Assembly (NCBI RefSeq): GCF_004001245.1
Contig: NZ_AP018724.1
Span: forward strand, 674,501-738,500
From: Sulfurivermis fontis
GTDB taxonomy: Bacteria > Pseudomonadota > Gammaproteobacteria > Thiohalomonadales > Thiohalomonadaceae
Direction: 5' to 3'
Length of the DNA stretch: 64,000 nucleotides
Shown here: piece after piece, positions 45,932-57,603 of the stretch
Position numbering within the stretch: position 1 is the stretch's first letter
How the letters are laid out: the number at the start of each line of letters is the position of its first letter
The notes under the pieces: generated by a model
The model's input: only the letters and a program-made list of their open reading frames with translations
Told to the model about the DNA's origin: nothing
Databases searched by the model: none
Translations under genes and position numbers: made by a program

Positions 45932-46084
45932 CAGTTGTTGTGACAGTATTGCTGGAGGTGGTTAATGCCCCTGTTTGGAATTGAAGGTGACCCGCAACAC
46001 CAAGCATCCTGAGCGCACCGCGGCCGGTGCTGAATTCCTAGAATGGCGAAAGAGACTTTTTGCGCGGCCGGGTGGCACCAGCTT

Positions 46085-46140
46085 TTGGTCCTCCAGGAAA
46101 TTTGTGCTATTTTTTGATGGCACAAATATGGAGGTCCACC
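46085..46140 (+). promoter_or_regulatory. Promoter and palindromic operator of the toxin-antitoxin module
   Basis: TTGGTC (46085-46090), 17 bp, and TATTTT (46108-46113) form a plausible promoter. TTTGTGC (46101-46107) and GCACAAA (46120-46126) make a perfect 7-bp inverted repeat that brackets the -10 box. Such placement is typical of toxin-antitoxin autorepression. GGAGGT at 46130-46135 is the ribosome site for the GTG start at 46141. Further left, 45932-46084 holds only a 15-codon frame with no recognisable product. Confidence 0.6.
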
Positions 46141-46479
46141 GTGGATATCTTTACTGTCAGAGACTTACGCGAACGTACCGGCGAGCTGATCCGCGATGCG
46201 GAGGCGGGCAAGTTGTCCGTCGTCACCAAGCATGGGCAGCCGGTATTTGTCGCCGTGCCTTTCGACGAGGTGCTGGTGCGTGAGGGCGTGGCAGTCGCAT
46301 TGGCCGTTAAGCTCTTCGATGAGGAAGTGCTCACGCTGCGCCAGGCGGCGAAGGTGGCAGGTATGACCCTGGCGCAGTTCATGGAGGAGTGTTCTGCGCG
46401 GGAGGTCCCTGTGGTTCGTTATGGTCCGGAAGAACTCGAACAGGAAGTGAAGGTCTTCGATGAGTTGCATCGTCGCTGA
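46141..46479 (+). CDS. UPF0175-family antitoxin with Phd-like N-terminus
   Basis: A 112-residue protein. The N-terminal half, VDIFTVRDLRERTGELIRDAEAGKLSVVTKHGQPVFVAVPFDE, resembles the DNA-binding Phd/YefM fold. The C-terminal half, LAVKLFDEEVLTLRQAAKVAGMTLAQFMEECSAREVPVVRYGPEELEQEV, matches UPF0175. The GTG start is chosen for its GGAGGT site; an upstream frame to 46060 includes the operator and is rejected. Its end overlaps the DUF3368 gene by 20 bp, the expected antitoxin-then-toxin order. Confidence 0.82.
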   Translation: MDIFTVRDLRERTGELIRDAEAGKLSVVTKHGQPVFVAVPFDEVLVREGVAVALAVKLFDEEVLTLRQAAKVAGMTLAQFMEECSAREVPVVRYGPEELEQEVKVFDELHRR

Positions 46480-46948
46480 CGCGGGCCCACTGATCGCGCT
46501 TGCCAAAGCGGGATTGCTGGAGCTGCCGAGGCGTGCCTTTGGGCAGGCACTGATTTCCAGCACCGTCTTCGACGAGTGCCTGACTCAAGTGCGCAGCCAT
46601 GACGCCCAGCGAATTAGAGAAGCGGTAGAGGCCGGTGTACTGGTTGTATGCAGTGCACCCGATTGGCCTGTGGGCAGACCCGCCCCACGTCTGGACCCCG
46701 GTGAATTGAGCGCCATTGCCCTCGCACTGCATCACTCAGCGCCACTGCTCATGGACGAGAAACGCGGGCGCCGCTCGGCCGCCCGCATGGGAATTCCTCT
46801 GGTGGGTGTCTGCGGATTGCTCGTTATCGCCAAGCGGCAGGGGTGGATCAGCAGTGTGCATGATGTGCTCACTGCCATGAAGAGAGACGGTTACTACATC
46901 GCCCCCTCCCTGACGCATAAAGTCCTCCAACTCGCCGGCGAGGGATAG
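46460..46948 (+). CDS. DUF3368-family PIN-like toxin
   Basis: A 162-residue protein. SCIVADAGPLIALAKAGLLELPRRAFGQALISSTVFDECL has the first acidic residues and the PLIAL block of DUF3368 (PIN-like nucleases). LDPGELSAIALALHHSAPLLMDEKRGRRSAARMGIPLVGVCGLLVIAKRQGWI contains the remaining acidic positions (GE, DE) and the RRxA motif. It probably cleaves RNA when free of antitoxin. The TAG stop is 3 bp from the cas1 start, so toxin and cas1 translation are likely coupled. Confidence 0.82.
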   Translation: MSCIVADAGPLIALAKAGLLELPRRAFGQALISSTVFDECLTQVRSHDAQRIREAVEAGVLVVCSAPDWPVGRPAPRLDPGELSAIALALHHSAPLLMDEKRGRRSAARMGIPLVGVCGLLVIAKRQGWISSVHDVLTAMKRDGYYIAPSLTHKVLQLAGEG

Positions 46949-46951
46949 GAA

Positions 46952-48143
<1,192 letters not shown>

Positions 48144-48247: not shown

Positions 48248-51200
48248 GTGTTCCCCGCGCACGCGGGGATGAACCGGCCCACGGGCCGCTCGCCTTGCTC
48301 CATCCGCTGTGTTCCCCGCGCACGCGGGGATGAACCGGCCGTGACCGCGCCCAAGGGCACGTTCGAGCAGTGTTCCCCGCGCACGCGGGGATGAACCAGT
48401 TGAATTCCAGCTTTTGTCGTTTGAACAACTGTGTTCCCCGCGCACGCGGGGATGAACCGGTTAGCGGCCCGCCTGAATACTGCTACCCGGCGGTGTTCCC
48501 CGCGCACGCGGGGATGAACCGTACAGCGACTTCTTCGCTGCCACCCAACTCCAGGTGTTCCCCGCGCACGCGGGGATGAACCGCCACTGATCGCAGTTGC
48601 GCCCAGCTAGTAACCGTGTTCCCCGCGCACGCGGGGATGAACCGTTCGGCACCGGCTTCGTCCGCCTTGGCTCGGCGTGTTCCCCGCGCACGCGGGGATG
48701 AACCGTCGGCTCTTTCTGGGTTGCCTGTTGATATGCTGTGTTCCCCGCGCACGCGGGGATGAACCGCCGCTCCGCCTCTATCAATTCGTTTTCGGTATGT
48801 GTTCCCCGCGCACGCGGGGATGAACCGGCAGCCAGCTCGGGAAACTGGCGGCGGTTGTGGTGTTCCCCGCGCACGCGGGGATGAACCGGCGCTCTCGCGC
48901 CACATCGGCCAGGGCAACGGCGTGTTCCCCGCGCACGCGGGGATGAACCGCTCTACGAGATCACCGTGCCAGCAGGCGACACGTGTTCCCCGCGCACGCG
49001 GGGATGAACCGGACGTGGACGTATCCAGCCCGAGCGCGGGAGAGTGTTCCCCGCGCACGCGGGGATGAACCGTGGGTGGTCGAGGGCTTCGTGATGGTCA
49101 AGAGGTGTTCCCCGCGCACGCGGGGATGAACCGGTTGCTGCGTGGTCGCGGCCGTGGTTGTTGTTGTGTTCCCCGCGCACGCGGGGATGAACCGATGAAC
49201 CTGGCCCGCCCGATGTTTCAGCTCAAGTGTTCCCCGCGCACGCGGGGATGAACCGGCGTCGGCCTCGATGCAGGGGGACAGGTAGCGGTGTTCCCCGCGC
49301 ACGCGGGGATGAACCGTTCGAGGGAGACGGCCTGGCCTGGCTGAACGAGTGTTCCCCGCGCACGCGGGGATGAACCGGACGGCCTGCCGGCGGAGGCGCT
49401 GGAGGCGACGTGTTCCCCGCGCACGCGGGGATGAACCGGCGATCCTGGAGGAGGCGAAGTGATGACGAAGGTGTTCCCCGCGCACGCGGGGATGAACCGG
49501 AGTCCGGCAAAGTCCGATTTCCCATCCAAGCGTGTTCCCCGCGCACGCGGGGATGAACCGACCGGGAACGATTACGACATGACGCGGCTGCTGTGTTCCC
49601 CGCGCACGCGGGGATGAACCGCCATGCCTTTTATGTATCCAGTTTGGACGCTGGTGTTCCCCGCGCACGCGGGGATGAACCGCCACGATGCGAGATCACA
49701 AATTGGCTGATACGGTGTTCCCCGCGCACGCGGGGATGAACCGGCCGCCTACGTCCTGAAGACCAAGGGCTGCCCGTGTTCCCCGCGCACGCGGGGATGA
49801 ACCGTCGTCCACGCTGTCGCCGACCACCTGGCCGGAGTGTTCCCCGCGCACGCGGGGATGAACCGTTCAACAATCTCGACAACTTCGGCGGGTTCCCGGT
49901 GTTCCCCGCGCACGCGGGGATGAACCGTAACCCAACCAACACCCAACGCCATAACCACCGTGTTCCCCGCGCACGCGGGGATGAACCGATTGTTGGGCTA
50001 ACATCGATCCAGATGCCAGCGTGTTCCCCGCGCACGCGGGGATGAACCGATCATCGCCGCCCTGACGGCGAACCGCGATGAGTGTTCCCCGCGCACGCGG
50101 GGATGAACCGCTGTGATCATCGGCTACGAGGAGCTCTATTCGGTGTTCCCCGCGCACGCGGGGATGAACCGTGTTGTTGGAAGTGGCGAACTCGACTGTG
50201 GACGTGTTCCCCGCGCACGCGGGGATGAACCGCCCCCGGCCCACTTCAACTGCCGGTCGGTCATGTGTTCCCCGCGCACGCGGGGATGAACCGACATGGT
50301 GGGCGAGATTCCTTCCATCCTCAACGTGTTCCCCGCGCACGCGGGGATGAACCGACAGGTCAAGGCGAACTTGCCGTCGGCAGCGCGTGTTCCCCGCGCA
50401 CGCGGGGATGAACCGGTCGATGACCGCGTGGCCTGGCTCGGGCGGAGGTGTTCCCCGCGCACGCGGGGATGAACCGCCCTCCGTGGAGGTCCAGGCGTGG
50501 CCGGTGGTGTGTTCCCCGCGCACGCGGGGATGAACCGCGGTCCCTCAGCGCCTTGCCCAACAGGACCGCGTGTTCCCCGCGCACGCGGGGATGAACCGCT
50601 TGCCGCAGTTGGCAAAGCCGCCGCGATTACGTGTTCCCCGCGCACGCGGGGATGAACCGCTTATGTCGATTTGGCCGACCGCGCCAATGGGGTGTTCCCC
50701 GCGCACGCGGGGATGAACCGCTGCGTAATCGACAGTTCTTCGCCGACCTTCGGTGTTCCCCGCGCACGCGGGGATGAACCGTGATGATCTCATCCTTGAA
50801 CTTCCCGCCGATGGTGTTCCCCGCGCACGCGGGGATGAACCGTCCAGGTCATACGGGAGGTTGGCCCCCACGATGTGTTCCCCGCGCACGCGGGGATGAA
50901 CCGCCGCATCAACGTCGTGTAGTTGCCATCTCCCAGTGTTCCCCGCGCACGCGGGGATGAACCGGACCTCCCATGCAACCTTCAGGCCATCTTCCAGTGT
51001 TCCCCGCGCACGCGGGGATGAACCGGCCCGGCTCCAGGACGCGGATGCGGCGCTTGCGTGTTCCCCGCGCACGCGGGGATGAACCGCCCCCGGCCCACTT
51101 CAACTGCCGGTCGGTCATGTGTTCCCCGCGCACGCGGGGATGAACCGACATGGTGGGCGAGATTCCTTCCATCCTCAACGTGTTCCCCGCGCACGCGGGG

Positions 51201-54111
51201 ATGAACCGCTATTTCGGTCATTTCCCGAACAGCATTAAAAGTGTTCCCCGCGCACGCGGGGATGAACCGCGACCCAACCGCGCGCGAACTGTTCCAACAA
51301 TGTGTTCCCCGCGCACGCGGGGATGAACCGGTACGACGCCGCTTGTTCCCAATCGTAACAAAGTGTTCCCCGCGCACGCGGGGATGAACCGGCCGACGAA
51401 TCACAATGGCTGGAACCGTCGCAGTGTTCCCCGCGCACGCGGGGATGAACCGCCGGTTGCCTTGTGCGTCGGTCGGCTTGTAAACGTGTTCCCCGCGCAC
51501 GCGGGGATGAACCGATGCCGTCCGCATAGGCGTTCTTGCGCGTCCCGTGTTCCCCGCGCACGCGGGGATGAACCGCCTTCCGGGGTGACGTGCGGGCTCG
51601 AACCCTGGTGTTCCCCGCGCACGCGGGGATGAACCGCTACGGTCAATCTTCCACCGCTTCGGGATCACGTGTTCCCCGCGCACGCGGGGATGAACCGAGC
51701 ACGGCACCCCTTCAGCTCCGGGTGCGACCGTGTTCCCCGCGCACGCGGGGATGAACCGACCCTCAGTGTGTCCTTGTCCAACGTGGGCGGGTGTTCCCCG
51801 CGCACGCGGGGATGAACCGCACGTCCGCATCCTGGAGCATTACACGGAGCAGTGTTCCCCGCGCACGCGGGGATGAACCGTGGTCCGCCTCCTGACCTTC
51901 TGGGAGTCGGACCGTGTTCCCCGCGCACGCGGGGATGAACCGGTCGGAGCCGTCCTGGTTCGGCCCAACAACAGGTGTTCCCCGCGCACGCGGGGATGAA
52001 CCGGCTATGCCCTGCGGCAGATCGAACGCGCCCACGTGTTCCCCGCGCACGCGGGGATGAACCGTCCGTGACCGCGCCCAAGGGCAACTTCGAGAAGTGT
52101 TCCCCGCGCACGCGGGGATGAACCGGAGGAGTGGGCCGTGGTCGATGAGTGGGCGACGTGTTCCCCGCGCACGCGGGGATGAACCGAACGACATCAGCCG
52201 CAAGGCCCTGATCCAGGCGTGTTCCCCGCGCACGCGGGGATGAACCGTGGTCGAGCTGCCCAGCGGTGCCGAAGTCCCGGTGTTCCCCGCGCACGCGGGG
52301 ATGAACCGGGACAGCATGGCCGTCCGGGGAGCGCCCCGTGGTGTTCCCCGCGCACGCGGGGATGAACCGCTGATGGGGCCACCGTTGCCGCCGGTCGCCA
52401 CCGTGTTCCCCGCGCACGCGGGGATGAACCGTTCGCCCTGCGCATGCTGTCGGAGCCGCAGGAGTGTTCCCCGCGCACGCGGGGATGAACCGGAGCGGTC
52501 AACCTTCCACCGCTTGGGAATGAGGTGTTCCCCGCGCACGCGGGGATGAACCGCTGGCGTGAGCCGGATCGTCTGTCCAGCCCTCGTGTTCCCCGCGCAC
52601 GCGGGGATGAACCGGCTACGCCCTCCGCCAGATCGAACGCGCCCACGTGTTCCCCGCGCACGCGGGGATGAACCGTCCAGGCGCGCAGCGAGTCGTGGGC
52701 GGCGCGTGTGTTCCCCGCGCACGCGGGGATGAACCGCATTGCCTGCTTCGAGCCCTCGCGACAAGCAACGTGTTCCCCGCGCACGCGGGGATGAACCGTA
52801 TAGCCGGTCAATCGGAAGAAGTAAAGAGGCGTGTTCCCCGCGCACGCGGGGATGAACCGTGACGGCGCTCATGACCCCGGGGCCAGCGACCGTGTTCCCC
52901 GCGCACGCGGGGATGAACCGGAGGTGCTGTCATGACCCCGCTGGCTAGGATAGTGTTCCCCGCGCACGCGGGGATGAACCGGGCGAGACGGCCCTGCTGC
53001 GAATCAATCCCCAGTGTTCCCCGCGCACGCGGGGATGAACCGGCGCATTGCTCCTCCTCAGTGACGCGAGTGCGGTGTTCCCCGCGCACGCGGGGATGAA
53101 CCGGCGCATTGCTCCTCCTCAGTGACGCGAGTGCGGTGTTCCCCGCGCACGCGGGGATGAACCGTCGCTATCGTCGCGCGGAAGCACCGGCAGCGTGTGT
53201 TCCCCGCGCACGCGGGGATGAACCGGCACCACTGGCTTCTTGCGCACCAGCTTCTCAGTGTTCCCCGCGCACGCGGGGATGAACCGCCGCACCATGCAGA
53301 ACTTCCTGATGGACACCAGTGTTCCCCGCGCACGCGGGGATGAACCGGCGGAGAAAAGCCTTCAGGCTCTTGGTGGCCGGTGTTCCCCGCGCACGCGGGG
53401 ATGAACCGTAGTCCCCTGCTTCCTCCGGCGGCTCCCCTGAGTGTTCCCCGCGCACGCGGGGATGAACCGCCCAACACCTCGTCGACGCGCTCGCAGGAAT
53501 CGTGTTCCCCGCGCACGCGGGGATGAACCGGTTCACGGCCGTGGCCGGCCGCCCGGGTTTCTGTGTTCCCCGCGCACGCGGGGATGAACCGCGCGACGAC
53601 GCGGTGGTGCATATCGACGTTATGTGTTCCCCGCGCACGCGGGGATGAACCGGAAGCCAAGGCGCAGCGCGCCGAGGTACAGATGTGTTCCCCGCGCACG
53701 CGGGGATGAACCGGAAACCATCCGCGCCCTGCCCGACGAGGCCAAGTGTTCCCCGCGCACGCGGGGATGAACCGATCAACGAGCAGGTAGCCGTCTGTAT
53801 CGGTGCGTGTTCCCCGCGCACGCGGGGATGAACCGCTAGCCCGGTACCGTGACATCGTGACCAAGGAGTGTTCCCCGCGCACGCGGGGATGAACCGGTTT
53901 CGCCGTCCATTTCGACGAAGCTTCGCACGTGTTCCCCGCGCACGCGGGGATGAACCGGGATGCCCGATCTGGCGATGTTGCGCCGCGCGGTGTTCCCCGC
54001 GCACGCGGGGATGAACCGTCTGGCGGCGACGCCTACCTCTCCCGCGCCCTGTGTTCCCCGCGCACGCGGGGATGAACCGATTAAAGAAGACTTGTATGTC
54101 AACCGCCTTAA
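48248..54111 (+). CRISPR. CRISPR-1, leader-proximal segment: 96 type I-E repeats
   Basis: The 29-bp repeats begin GTGTTCCCCGCGCACGCGGG and end GATGAACCG. By counting start positions I find 96 of them between 48248 and 54079, spaced 61 bp apart (32-nt spacers) with eight 33-nt spacers. No repeat variant is visible in this part. crRNA would be read on the plus strand, away from cas2, with 5' handle ATGAACCG. The last spacer (54080-54111) ends in TTAA where an IS element entered. Duplicated and related spacers are listed in the findings. Confidence 0.98.
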
Positions 54112-55269
54112 GGAACTTCTGCAAAAGTCCCCGATCTGATCTTGCAACCGCATGACCGGAGCCGAGGACGGGGAAAATGAAACAACTGAGCATGACCACG
54201 GGGTTCGAGAAATACACCAAGGCGACCAAGCGCCAGGCGTTTCTGTCCGACATGGACCGCCTGCTGCCGTGGGCGGAGCTGTGCGCGCTGATAGCGCCGC
54301 ACTACCCGCAGGCCGGTAACGGCCGGCCGCCGAAGGAGCTGGAGATGATGCTGCGCATCCACTTCCTCCAGCAGTGGTTCAATCTCTCGGACCCGATGGC
54401 CGAGGAAGCCCTGTACGACTCGCTCAGCATGCGCGCCTTCGCCGGCATCGACCTGGGCGAGCATCCGGTGCCGGACGAAACCACGATCTGCCGCTTCCGC
54501 CACCTGCTGGAGCAGCATGGCCTGGGTCGCAAGCTGTTCCAGCAGATGCACCAGTACCTGCAACGCCATGGCTTCAAGCTGGGCACCGGCACCATCGTCG
54601 ATGCCACCCTCATCAGCGCCCCGTCCTCGACCAAGAACAAGGACCAGCAGCGCGACCCGGACATGCACCAGACCAAGAAGGGCAACCAGTGGTATTTCGG
54701 CATGAAGGCCCATGTCGGTGTCGACCACCGCACCAAGCTCATCCACTCGGTGGTGGCCACCGCCGCCAACGTCCACGACTCCCACTGCCTGCCCGACCTG
54801 CTGCACGGCGATGAAACCCGCGTCTGGGGGGATTCGGCCTATCAGGGCCAGACCGAGGTCATCAAACAGCATGCGCCCAGGGCCCGCGACCTCACCCACC
54901 GACGCTACCGCTACAAGGGCTGGGTCGACGAAGCCGAACGGGCGAAGAACCGCCTCAAGTCCACCATCCGGGCACGGGTCGAACACAGCATCGGTGTCAT
55001 CAAACGGATATTCGGTTTTGCCAAGACCCGCTACCGGGGATTGGAGAAGAATGCCAACCGCCTGTTTGTCACCTGTGCCCTGGCCAACATCTACCTGGTG
55101 CGCAGGCAGCTGCTGCGTACTTTGCAGGCGTAGTGCCGATGCACTACGCCAAATGCGGCTCACGGGCCGCCGGGATGAGCAAATACCGGCGCTGCCGGTG
55201 CGATTCGGCGCGTGATGACTCGCTGATATCGACGATTTGCTCATATTGGATTACTTGTTCAGAGCATCC
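54112..55269 (+). mobile_element. IS5-family insertion sequence inside the CRISPR array
   Basis: The 1158-bp element has imperfect terminal inverted repeats: left GGAACTTCTGCAAAAGTCC and right, read inwards, GGATGCTCTGAACAAGTAAT. TTAA flanks both ends (54108-54111 and 55270-55273) as a 4-bp target duplication of the YTAR type used by IS5-group elements. One transposase gene occupies most of it. It splits the array exactly at a spacer-repeat border. Confidence 0.93.
54177..55133 (+). CDS. IS5-family transposase
   Basis: A 318-residue DDE transposase of the IS5 group. The N-terminal domain has YPQAGNGRPPKELEMMLRIHFLQQWFNLSDPMAEEALYDSLSMRAFAGIDL, then VPDETTICRFRHLLEQH. The catalytic acids are in GTIVDATLI (first D), VWGDSAYQGQ (second D) and RARVEHSIGVIKRIFGF (E with the YREK-like spacing). 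The frame is uninterrupted, so the element may be active. GGACGGGG lies just upstream of the ATG. Confidence 0.95.
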   Translation: MKQLSMTTGFEKYTKATKRQAFLSDMDRLLPWAELCALIAPHYPQAGNGRPPKELEMMLRIHFLQQWFNLSDPMAEEALYDSLSMRAFAGIDLGEHPVPDETTICRFRHLLEQHGLGRKLFQQMHQYLQRHGFKLGTGTIVDATLISAPSSTKNKDQQRDPDMHQTKKGNQWYFGMKAHVGVDHRTKLIHSVVATAANVHDSHCLPDLLHGDETRVWGDSAYQGQTEVIKQHAPRARDLTHRRYRYKGWVDEAERAKNRLKSTIRARVEHSIGVIKRIFGFAKTRYRGLEKNANRLFVTCALANIYLVRRQLLRTLQA

Positions 55270-55547
55270 TTAAGTGTTCCCCGCGCACGCGGGGATGAAC
55301 CGCACCAGACCGGCAATGGCCCGTGCTATTGCCAGGTGTTCCCCGCGCACGTGGGGATGAACCGCCCACCGCCGAGGTCCGCGACCTGCGGGCGGAATGT
55401 TCCCCGCGCACGCGGGGATGAACCGGTAGCATGACCTCCACGGCGGCGCGCAACGGCATGTTCCCCGCGCACGCGGGGATGAACCGGCGTTGTTCGGGCT
55501 CGTGATTTTTATCGCAAAATGTTCCCCGCGCACGCGGGGATGAACCG

Positions 55548-55739
55548 AAAACGAAAGAGGCGCCCAACAGCGCCCTGACCTTCGACCGCCTGGCCGGCAG
55601 CCTGGGCAAGGGCAACTACCGCAAGGACGGCCGCCTGAACGCCAAAGGCGCCGACCGTGTCGCCGGCAAGACCCCTGATCGGCGAGACCAAGCAGCTCTC
55701 CACCAAGATATTCCCCCGCGCCACCGCCCACAGTGTCGA
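55548..55739 (+). other. 192-nt oversized spacer with coding-like content
   Basis: Between the repeat at 55519-55547 and the repeat start at 55740 lie 192 nt where 32 are expected. One frame reads TKEAPNSALTFDRLAGSLGK, then GNYRKDGRLNAKGADRVAGK, with no stop. Deleting one C from the CCCC run at 55672-55675 continues it as TLIGETKQLSTKIFPRATAH. Codon-like composition and the frame suggest a fragment of a foreign, perhaps phage, gene with a single-base shift. I do not recognise the protein with confidence. Confidence 0.65.
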
Positions 55740-55958
55740 GTGTTCCCCGCGCACGCGGCATGAGTCAGAAATGGTGATGTCAAGACCTGACCCCGAATAT
55801 TCTTCCGACCGTGTCGCCGGCAAGACCCCTGATCGGCGAGACCAAGCAGCTCTCCACCAAGATATTCCCCCGCGCCACCGCCCACAGTGTCGAGTGTTCC
55901 CCGCGCACGCGGCATGAGTCAGAAATGGTGATGTCAAGACCTGACCCCGAATATTCTT
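55651..55958 (+). repeat. Exact tandem duplication, 154 bp x 2
   Basis: Positions 55651-55804 and 55805-55958 appear identical. Each unit holds the last 89 bp of the oversized spacer, the first 19 bp of a CRISPR repeat (55740-55758 and 55894-55912), the 44-bp CATGAG...AATATTC element and TT. A third copy of only the element follows (55964-56007) before the last seven bases of a CRISPR repeat (TGAACCG, 56008-56014). Confidence 0.88.
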
Positions 55959-56007
55959 TACGGCATGAGTCAGAAATGGTGATGTCAAGACCTGACCCCG
56001 AATATTC
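55759..56007. repeat. Short repeated element inserted in CRISPR repeats (three copies)
   Basis: The 44-bp unit starts CATGAGTCAGAAATGGTGAT, contains GTCAAGACCTGACCCC and ends GAATATTC. Copies lie at 55759-55802, 55913-55956 and 55964-56007. The first two follow exactly base 19 of a CRISPR repeat, and the third is followed by the repeat's last seven bases, so a single repeat was split with loss of GGA. I associate the GTCAAGACCTGACCCC core with repeats near REP-associated transposases in proteobacteria, from memory only. Confidence 0.6.
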
Positions 56008-56858
56008 TGAACCGCCAGCCACGGCAGCAGGACTTCGGGGCAGGTGATGTTCCCCGCGCACGCGGGGATGAACCGAACGCCGCCGCCAATCGCTTATGGG
56101 ATGCGTAGTGTTCCCCGCGCACGCGGGGATGAACCGCGATCTGCGCCTCGGCGCCGGACAGCGTGACCGTGTTCCCCGCGCACGCGGGGATGAACCGCTG
56201 GCCAGCAGCGGCAGTCCGTCGATCTCGGCGTGTTCCCCGCGCACGCGGGGATGAACCGTCCCAGATGCTGAATTCATTGATGCCAGCAATGTGTTCCCCG
56301 CGCACGCGGGGATGAACCGGCCGACGCCGGGCACCAGAAGCAGGCGCAGCGGTGTTCCCCGCGCACGCGGGGATGAACCGCGATTGGCGGCGGCGTTCTT
56401 GGCGCCCTCGCTGTGTTCCCCGCGCACGCGGGGATGAACCGATGATGCGCCGAATGACCGCCGATTGCCTGCCGTGTTCCCCGCGCACGCGGGGATGAAC
56501 CGCCAGCGGCGGAACTCGGTGTCAGGGATTGGATGTGTTCCCCGCGCACGCGGGGATGAACCGTTGACCGGCGAATTCTCCGGAGTGCGCAGCACGTGTT
56601 CCCCGCGCACGCGGGGATGAACCGCAGCTTGAGAACAGCGCCACACCGTAGGGATTGTGTTCCCCGCGCACGCGGGGATGAACCGAAATCAAGGCGGGGG
56701 CGTAACCATGGCTGGATGTGTTCCCCGCGCACGCGGGGATGAACCGCCACCGATGTGGCCGCCTCGCTGGGGCTCGACATGTTCCCCGCGCACGCGGGGA
56801 TGAACCGTCCATGACGAGGACCTGGGCGCAGTCTCCTTCGTGTTCCCCGCGCACGCGG

Positions 56859-56935
56859 CATGAGTCAGAAATGGTGATGTCAAGACCTGACCCCGAATAT
56901 GTGCGAATATGATGTCAAGACCTGACCCCGAATAT
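56859..56935. repeat. Same short element at the trailer end (one full, one partial copy)
   Basis: The element CATGAGTCAGAAATGGTGAT...GAATAT follows base 19 of the last, truncated CRISPR repeat (56859-56900). A partial second copy, GATGTCAAGACCTGACCCCG with AATAT, is at 56911-56935, flanked by GCGAATATG repeats. The junction inside the CRISPR repeat is identical to the two internal ones at 55758/55759 and 55912/55913. Confidence 0.6.
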
Positions 56936-57066
56936 GCGAATATGCTGTTCTTTAATAATTTGGTAAGCTGCATATCCATGAGTGCGGGAGCAATCTCATC
57001 TTCTGGGGCATGGTTCGCGCATTCATGGTTTTATCCGTATTTACAGCGCAATGTTGCGAGTACGGT
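56936..57066 (+). promoter_or_regulatory. Putative leader of CRISPR-2
   Basis: The 131 bp before the second array are locally AT-rich (CTGTTCTTTAATAATTTGGT at about 56944-56963), which contrasts with the GC-rich surroundings and is common in leaders. No coding frame stands out. Its position upstream of the repeats, in the orientation set by the ATTGAAAC repeat ends, fits a leader. Confidence 0.45.
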
Positions 57067-57461
57067 GCATCACCCGCTCACCAGAGCGGGTGCGGATTGA
57101 AACCCGGACTGACCACTTGTTGTCGACGCACAGGAAGGGCATCACCCGCTCACCAGAGCGGGTGCGGATTGAAACAGCAAGGAGCAGATCAAGCAGCTCA
57201 AGGATGAGCGCATCACCCGCTCACCAGAGCGGGTGCGGATTGAAACGAGCTGGAGGCCACCGATGTGTGGGGCGGCAGCACGCATCACCCGCTCACCAGA
57301 GCGGGTGCGGATTGAAACATCGTGCCGACCGCCGAAGCGGTGGTGGGTCGTCGCATCACCCGCTCACCAGAGCGGGTGCGGATTGAAACTCGATCACGGC
57401 CTTGACGTCCTTCAGGGCCGTTTCGCATCACCCGCTCACCAGAGCGGGTGCGGATTGAAAC
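57067..57461 (+). CRISPR. CRISPR-2: six 37-bp repeats, no cas genes nearby
   Basis: Six identical repeats start at 57067, 57139, 57210, 57282, 57353 and 57425. Each begins GCATCACCCGCTC, has loop ACCA and second arm GAGCGGGTG, and ends CGGATTGAAAC; the perfect stem is 9 bp. The five spacers are 34-35 nt. The ATTGAAAC end is typical of 5' handles in type I-B, I-C, I-D and III systems, not I-E, so Cas6e encoded here should not process it. No matching cas genes occur in the window. Confidence 0.95.
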
Positions 57462-57603
57462 CGCGAACCGTCAAGCAGTTCAGATCGTTACGCCATCTGG
57501 CCCTCGATAGTACGCAATATCGTTGCAGCGAGCGTTTCTCCGGTACCGATGATATTGGTTATCTCTTTGGTTTTGAGACCGACGGCGTCCCGAATATTGA
57601 TTC

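Follow-up and report, generated by a model that had tools for sequence, protein, structure and literature searches.

The window analysed here, a stretch of 64,000 nucleotides, belongs to the 3.25 Mb genome of Sulfurivermis fontis, which consists of a single contig. It carries a type I-E CRISPR-Cas locus in which Cas7, Cas5, Cas6e, Cas1e and Cas2e were confirmed with NCBIfam; a large Cas3-like open reading frame and others were read by eye upstream in the locus. The leader end of the array is on the left, beside cas2, which places the region of the 192-nt insert described below near the old, trailing end (Table 1). Two small overlapping open reading frames between cas6e and cas1 (46060-46948) resemble a toxin-antitoxin pair, and shortly downstream of the array, at 57066-57478, comes a second CRISPR array with six copies of a different repeat, GCATCACCCGCTCACCAGAGCGGGTGCGGATTGAAAC. 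The locus is absent from the related genomes of the family, which therefore provide no empty site for comparison.

The ordinary spacers of the array are 32 nt (n = 102) or 33 nt (n = 9) long. Besides the 192-nt insert there is a single length outlier, caused by an IS5-family element (54112-55269, transposase 54177-55133) that interrupts spacer 54080-54111 and has duplicated its TTAA target. Several repeats at the old end start with A rather than G (55397, 55458, 55519, 56047 and 56779). The two-spacer block 50233-50325 (50233/50294) is duplicated 854 nt away at 51087-51179 (51087/51148), and another spacer is duplicated in tandem (53043 and 53104). The presence of duplicated spacer blocks indicates that the array recombines.

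Table 1. Features of the array and of its interrupted region near the trailing end (window positions).
Feature	Position	Strand	Remarks
cas1e and cas2e	46952..48143	+	adjoin the leader end of the array
Type I-E array	48248..56858	+	114 full 29-nt repeats found
Left repeat, type I-E, intact	55519..55547	+	complete except for the A/G first base
192-nt insert ('giant spacer')	55548..55739	+	gene fragment whose frame shifts by +1 around 55669-55677
Putative original left spacer S1	55548..55579	+	first 32 nt of the insert; assigned from position only
Putative donor DNA replacing a repeat	55580..55707	+	128 nt, ends in AAG
Putative original right spacer S2	55708..55739	+	32 nt; AAG before, repeat directly after
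Split repeat, first 19 nt, GTGTTCCCCGCGCACGCGG	55740..55758	+	
RAYT-flank-like element, copy 1 (CATGAGTCAGAAATGGTGATGTCAAGACCTGACCCCGAATATTC...)	55759..55804	+	
Tandem second copy of 55651-55804 (154 nt, exact)	55805..55958	+	last 89 nt of insert, 19 nt of repeat and element copy 2
RAYT-flank-like element, copy 3	55964..56007	+	
Remaining 3' end of split repeat, TGAACCG	56008..56014	+	GGA missing
Truncated last repeat (same 19 nt as at 55740) and element copy 4	56840..56900	+	same junction as at 55740

The 192-nt insert

The insert abuts the end of the left repeat exactly and the next repeat starts at 55740. It is thus placed between two repeats just as an ordinary type I-E spacer would be, with the right repeat split further on, but its length falls outside the 32-33 nt of such spacers. 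The initial annotation had described it as six times the usual spacer length and as bounded by repeat sequence on both sides. The first statement is borne out (192 nt versus 32 nt). The second holds for the exactness of the edges and needs qualification on the right, where only 19 nt of repeat, GTGTTCCCCGCGCACGCGG, are followed by an interruption.

The coding potential of the insert was scored with the codon usage of the host genes. The best reading was on the plus strand in frame 1 up to nt ~122-130, followed by a +1 shift, and gave 32.3 bits; no single frame scored above 17.6, and no antisense split above 13.9. The position of this break agrees with the earlier proposal that the insert reads as one coding stretch after removal of a C at 55672-55675. 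Over the first 24 nt the evidence of coding is weak and frame 3 has a slight edge; at the other side, the coding frame carries on, although weakly, to the right end of the insert. The extra C recurs in the tandem copy, because 55651-55804 and 55805-55958 have the same sequence; a sequencing error is therefore unlikely, as the same base-calling error would be needed twice. Together the coding signal and the exact repeat boundaries support a foreign origin of the insert, which looks like foreign coding DNA. The possibility that it represents six fused spacers (192 = 6 x 32) was rejected because the coding frame spans several 32-nt boundaries; the frame also crosses the proposed boundaries of both S1 and S2.

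Apart from its own tandem copy, no second copy of the insert was found in the genome. According to the initial annotation, transposition would be indicated if a chromosomal match lay beside a further copy of the 44-bp element; no such match was encountered. The phage or plasmid with the contiguous 192 bp that the same annotation suggested looking for did not turn up either: the insert had no match in PHROGs, Pfam, phages (DNA and protein) or IMG/VR, nor in 369 genomes of the class or 84,980 GTDB representative genomes, and searches of plasmids and the PDB gave matches at chance level only. The same was true for IMG/VR when it was searched with DNA patterns derived from the insert peptide. No mobile element was recognised in the insert. 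The assignment of the fragment to a Mu-type virion morphogenesis protein (Phage_tail_S) was dropped: a comparison with family members from related genomes was unsupportive, although it was rough and several open reading frames had been taken in the wrong frame, and the Pfam profile gave no match. A candidate homologue with 32% identity (L025, E 0.004 across the 369 genomes) was dismissed as a chance match that overlaps unrelated genes.

The RAYT-flank element in the split repeat

The right repeat is interrupted by 249 nt that comprise three CATGAGTCAGAAATGGTGATGTCAAGACCTGACCCCGAATATTC copies and the tandem duplicate. An ordinary 32-nt spacer (56015-56046) comes after the TGAACCG that remains of the repeat. 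A partial fifth copy of the element, a 35-nt tandem partial copy, is present at 56910 in the region 56840-56945. In the genome the core GATGTCAAGACCTGACCCC occurs only in the array region and, inverted, to the left and right of a RAYT gene encoding an IS200-like transposase (Y1_Tnp; C1:91722-92579). The array copies differ from the right flank of this gene by 3 mismatches in 31 nt. The same sequence was found to flank a Y1/IS200-like transposase gene both in this genome (L023) and in a relative (L071), whose RAYT is 71% identical to the one described here. In another relative GATGTCAAGACCTGACCCC forms inverted pairs of roughly 70 nt at two places (L065, L072), and solo copies occur too. Judged by these sequence matches, the ~45-bp (44-bp) element is a RAYT flank.

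The array copies resemble RAYT and TnpA-REP elements in their match to the right flank of the RAYT gene and in having solo and paired counterparts in relatives. They differ in lying inside CRISPR repeats and in the lack of a strong predicted hairpin: the element alone gave no stable REP hairpin (z = 0.71). For this reason we regard the copies as flank repeats rather than classical REPs. A search for this RAYT flank within other I-E-like repeats in the 84,980 genomes, performed in one orientation only, gave none.

Tandem duplications accompany the ends of the element in the array, on both sides of the RAYT gene of this genome, and at L061. This suggests that RAYT-flank ends provoke local duplications. 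At the RAYT gene of S. fontis (L023:1000-2200) the tandemly duplicated stretches measure about 167 nt on the left and 79 nt on the right. The junction between repeat and element is shared by positions 55758 and 56858, which may reflect site-specific insertion or copying.

Yuavirus protospacers and the PAM

A search of phages with the array gave many matches to Yuavirus phages, which infect Pseudomonas. Each spacer was scanned against the phages YuA and Lydia with up to 6 mismatches allowed, and reversed spacers served as a control. At this threshold 26 spacers (48338-53318) matched YuA, six of them exactly; the reversed spacers gave zero matches against the two phages. The trinucleotide AAG stands directly upstream of 21 of the 27 Yuavirus protospacers. 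The PAM of the array is thus AAG, and these protospacers fix it independently of the insert. Six neighbouring spacers (51820-52126) all derive from the YuA plus strand. Three same-strand spacer pairs lie within 300 nt of each other on YuA, at distances of 90, 129 and 196 nt, and these are not neighbours in the array. The observed YuA spacer pairs that are adjacent in the array are all farther apart than 160 nt on the phage, with a minimum of about 1.4 kb. The spacer pairs 48338/52065 and 52004/52615, whose members differ by 3-4 bases, share the YuA protospacers 23826 and 20933; it seems that the array took up these YuA sites repeatedly, from diverged phages.

In the insert AAG is found at 55705-55707 (insert nt 158-160), directly before the final 32 nt, which is where a recombinant that ends in a complete spacer would carry it. 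By chance AAG occurs at 7 of 190 positions within the insert and at a rate of 1.45% in host genes; given the codon phase the chance is about 8% (5 of about 63 codons). The evidence from this single site is moderate.

Origin of the insert

Our tentative explanation is that the insert is target DNA of phage or plasmid origin, brought into the array by spacer-anchored recombination with the erasure of one repeat; we consider this quite possible, if somewhat short of probable. The neighbours S1 and S2 would probably have come from one foreign gene and the same strand, with protospacers about 128 nt apart. Strand exchange with the incoming gene via S2, and via S1 or an illegitimate join inside S1, would then have swapped the repeat between S1 and S2 for the native 128 nt, leaving a single 192-nt 'spacer'. 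Two variants would fit equally well, one with homology at S2 only and an illegitimate join inside S1, the other with two joins that meet at the frame break. We infer the recombination step and the identity of S1 from the sequence, the donor being absent from the collections searched.

Such a recombination is supported by the exact fit of the insert between two repeats, by the coding frame that crosses the proposed S1 and S2 boundaries, and by the AAG before the final 32 nt. Suitable substrates also exist, in that neighbouring spacers derive from a single phage strand and some same-strand pairs lie close together on YuA, and the duplicated spacer blocks show that the array itself recombines. 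Against it stand the failure of the searches to find a donor, the frame break at nt 122-130, which has to be explained by an additional indel or by a second join, and the distances between adjacent YuA spacers, all of which exceed 160 nt. Since no repeat precedes S2, no S2 crRNA should form, and self-targeting would be avoided although a PAM and S2 now stand together in the array. The wider proposition that adjacent spacers from one target gene can act as two homology arms, between which the target overwrites the repeat, appears to us somewhat doubtful.

The insert could also be an ordinary 32-nt spacer into which an unrelated, illegitimate event placed ~160 bp of foreign or mobile DNA, leaving spacer remnants at the ends that are unrecognisable. 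An insertion within a spacer would appear just as exactly repeat-bounded, the IS5-family element in the same array provides a precedent, and the weak coding signal of the first 24 nt, with its slight preference for frame 3, is in line with it. This explanation is nevertheless unlikely, as it leaves to chance that AAG stands precisely 32 nt before the right end, the reading frame runs on to that end, if weakly, and neither a mobile element nor a second copy was found. Uptake of a whole 192-bp prespacer by Cas1-Cas2, with both ends joined at the normal staggered sites 29 bp apart, would have an analogy in the casposon integrase, which integrates long DNA. Both insert ends coincide with repeat boundaries and intact-looking cas1e and cas2e genes are located at the leader end, in agreement with such an event. 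The prespacer length of type I-E Cas1-Cas2 is, however, fixed near 33 nt and all other readable spacers are 32-33 nt long; an AAG at 32 nt from the right end is not predicted by uptake of a long prespacer, and no terminal inverted repeats were seen by eye, so we regard it as decidedly improbable. Compared to ordinary type I-E adaptation by Cas1e-Cas2e, the array type, the AAG PAM, the cas1-cas2 genes at the leader end and the repeat-bounded insert are alike, and the difference is one of length (192 nt versus 32-33 nt). The initial annotation had left the choice between an aberrantly long prespacer and recombined foreign DNA. Because AAG directly precedes the last 32 nt we moderately favour recombination over the prespacer.

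It is very improbable that the RAYT-flank element brought the 192 nt along as flanking DNA, which would make the whole block 55548-56007 the product of one transposition. No more than 19 nt lie between the insert and the element to its right, and the tandem duplications linked with the element include part of the insert, but these 19 nt are repeat sequence that separates the two, and the element after the last repeat at 56840 has no insert. Moreover, the other genomic copies of the element flank the RAYT gene and lack the insert sequence, which has no other copy in the genome. For this last reason the element is assigned to a separate event, probably later than the arrival of the 192 nt.

Spacer-target recombination between phages and CRISPR loci has been documented (Varble et al. 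2019, cited in PMC8616872 and PMC10434264). As presented in these accounts, spacers provide the short stretches of homology through which exchange with the target phage takes place, much as proposed here for S1 and S2; the outcome described there is transduction of the CRISPR locus, whereas in the present case it would be a fused giant spacer and the loss of one repeat. A giant spacer as the product of spacer-protospacer recombination was not found in the literature searched. If the proposed recombination is true, arrays would be editable by the elements they remember, with a giant spacer containing an internal PAM as the scar, and oversized spacers with a PAM before the last 32 nt would provide a searchable signature. 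Invaders could then erase repeats and silence spacers, and primed adaptation, with several spacers from one region, would create recombination targets inside the array.

After the recombination proposed above, the RAYT-flank element would have landed, probably later, in the right repeat, and the local tandem duplications would have come next. The insertion probably disabled processing at the split repeat. Since the sequence before TGAACCG that would form the usual 8-nt handle is missing from this repeat, the spacer 56015-56046 is probably silent.
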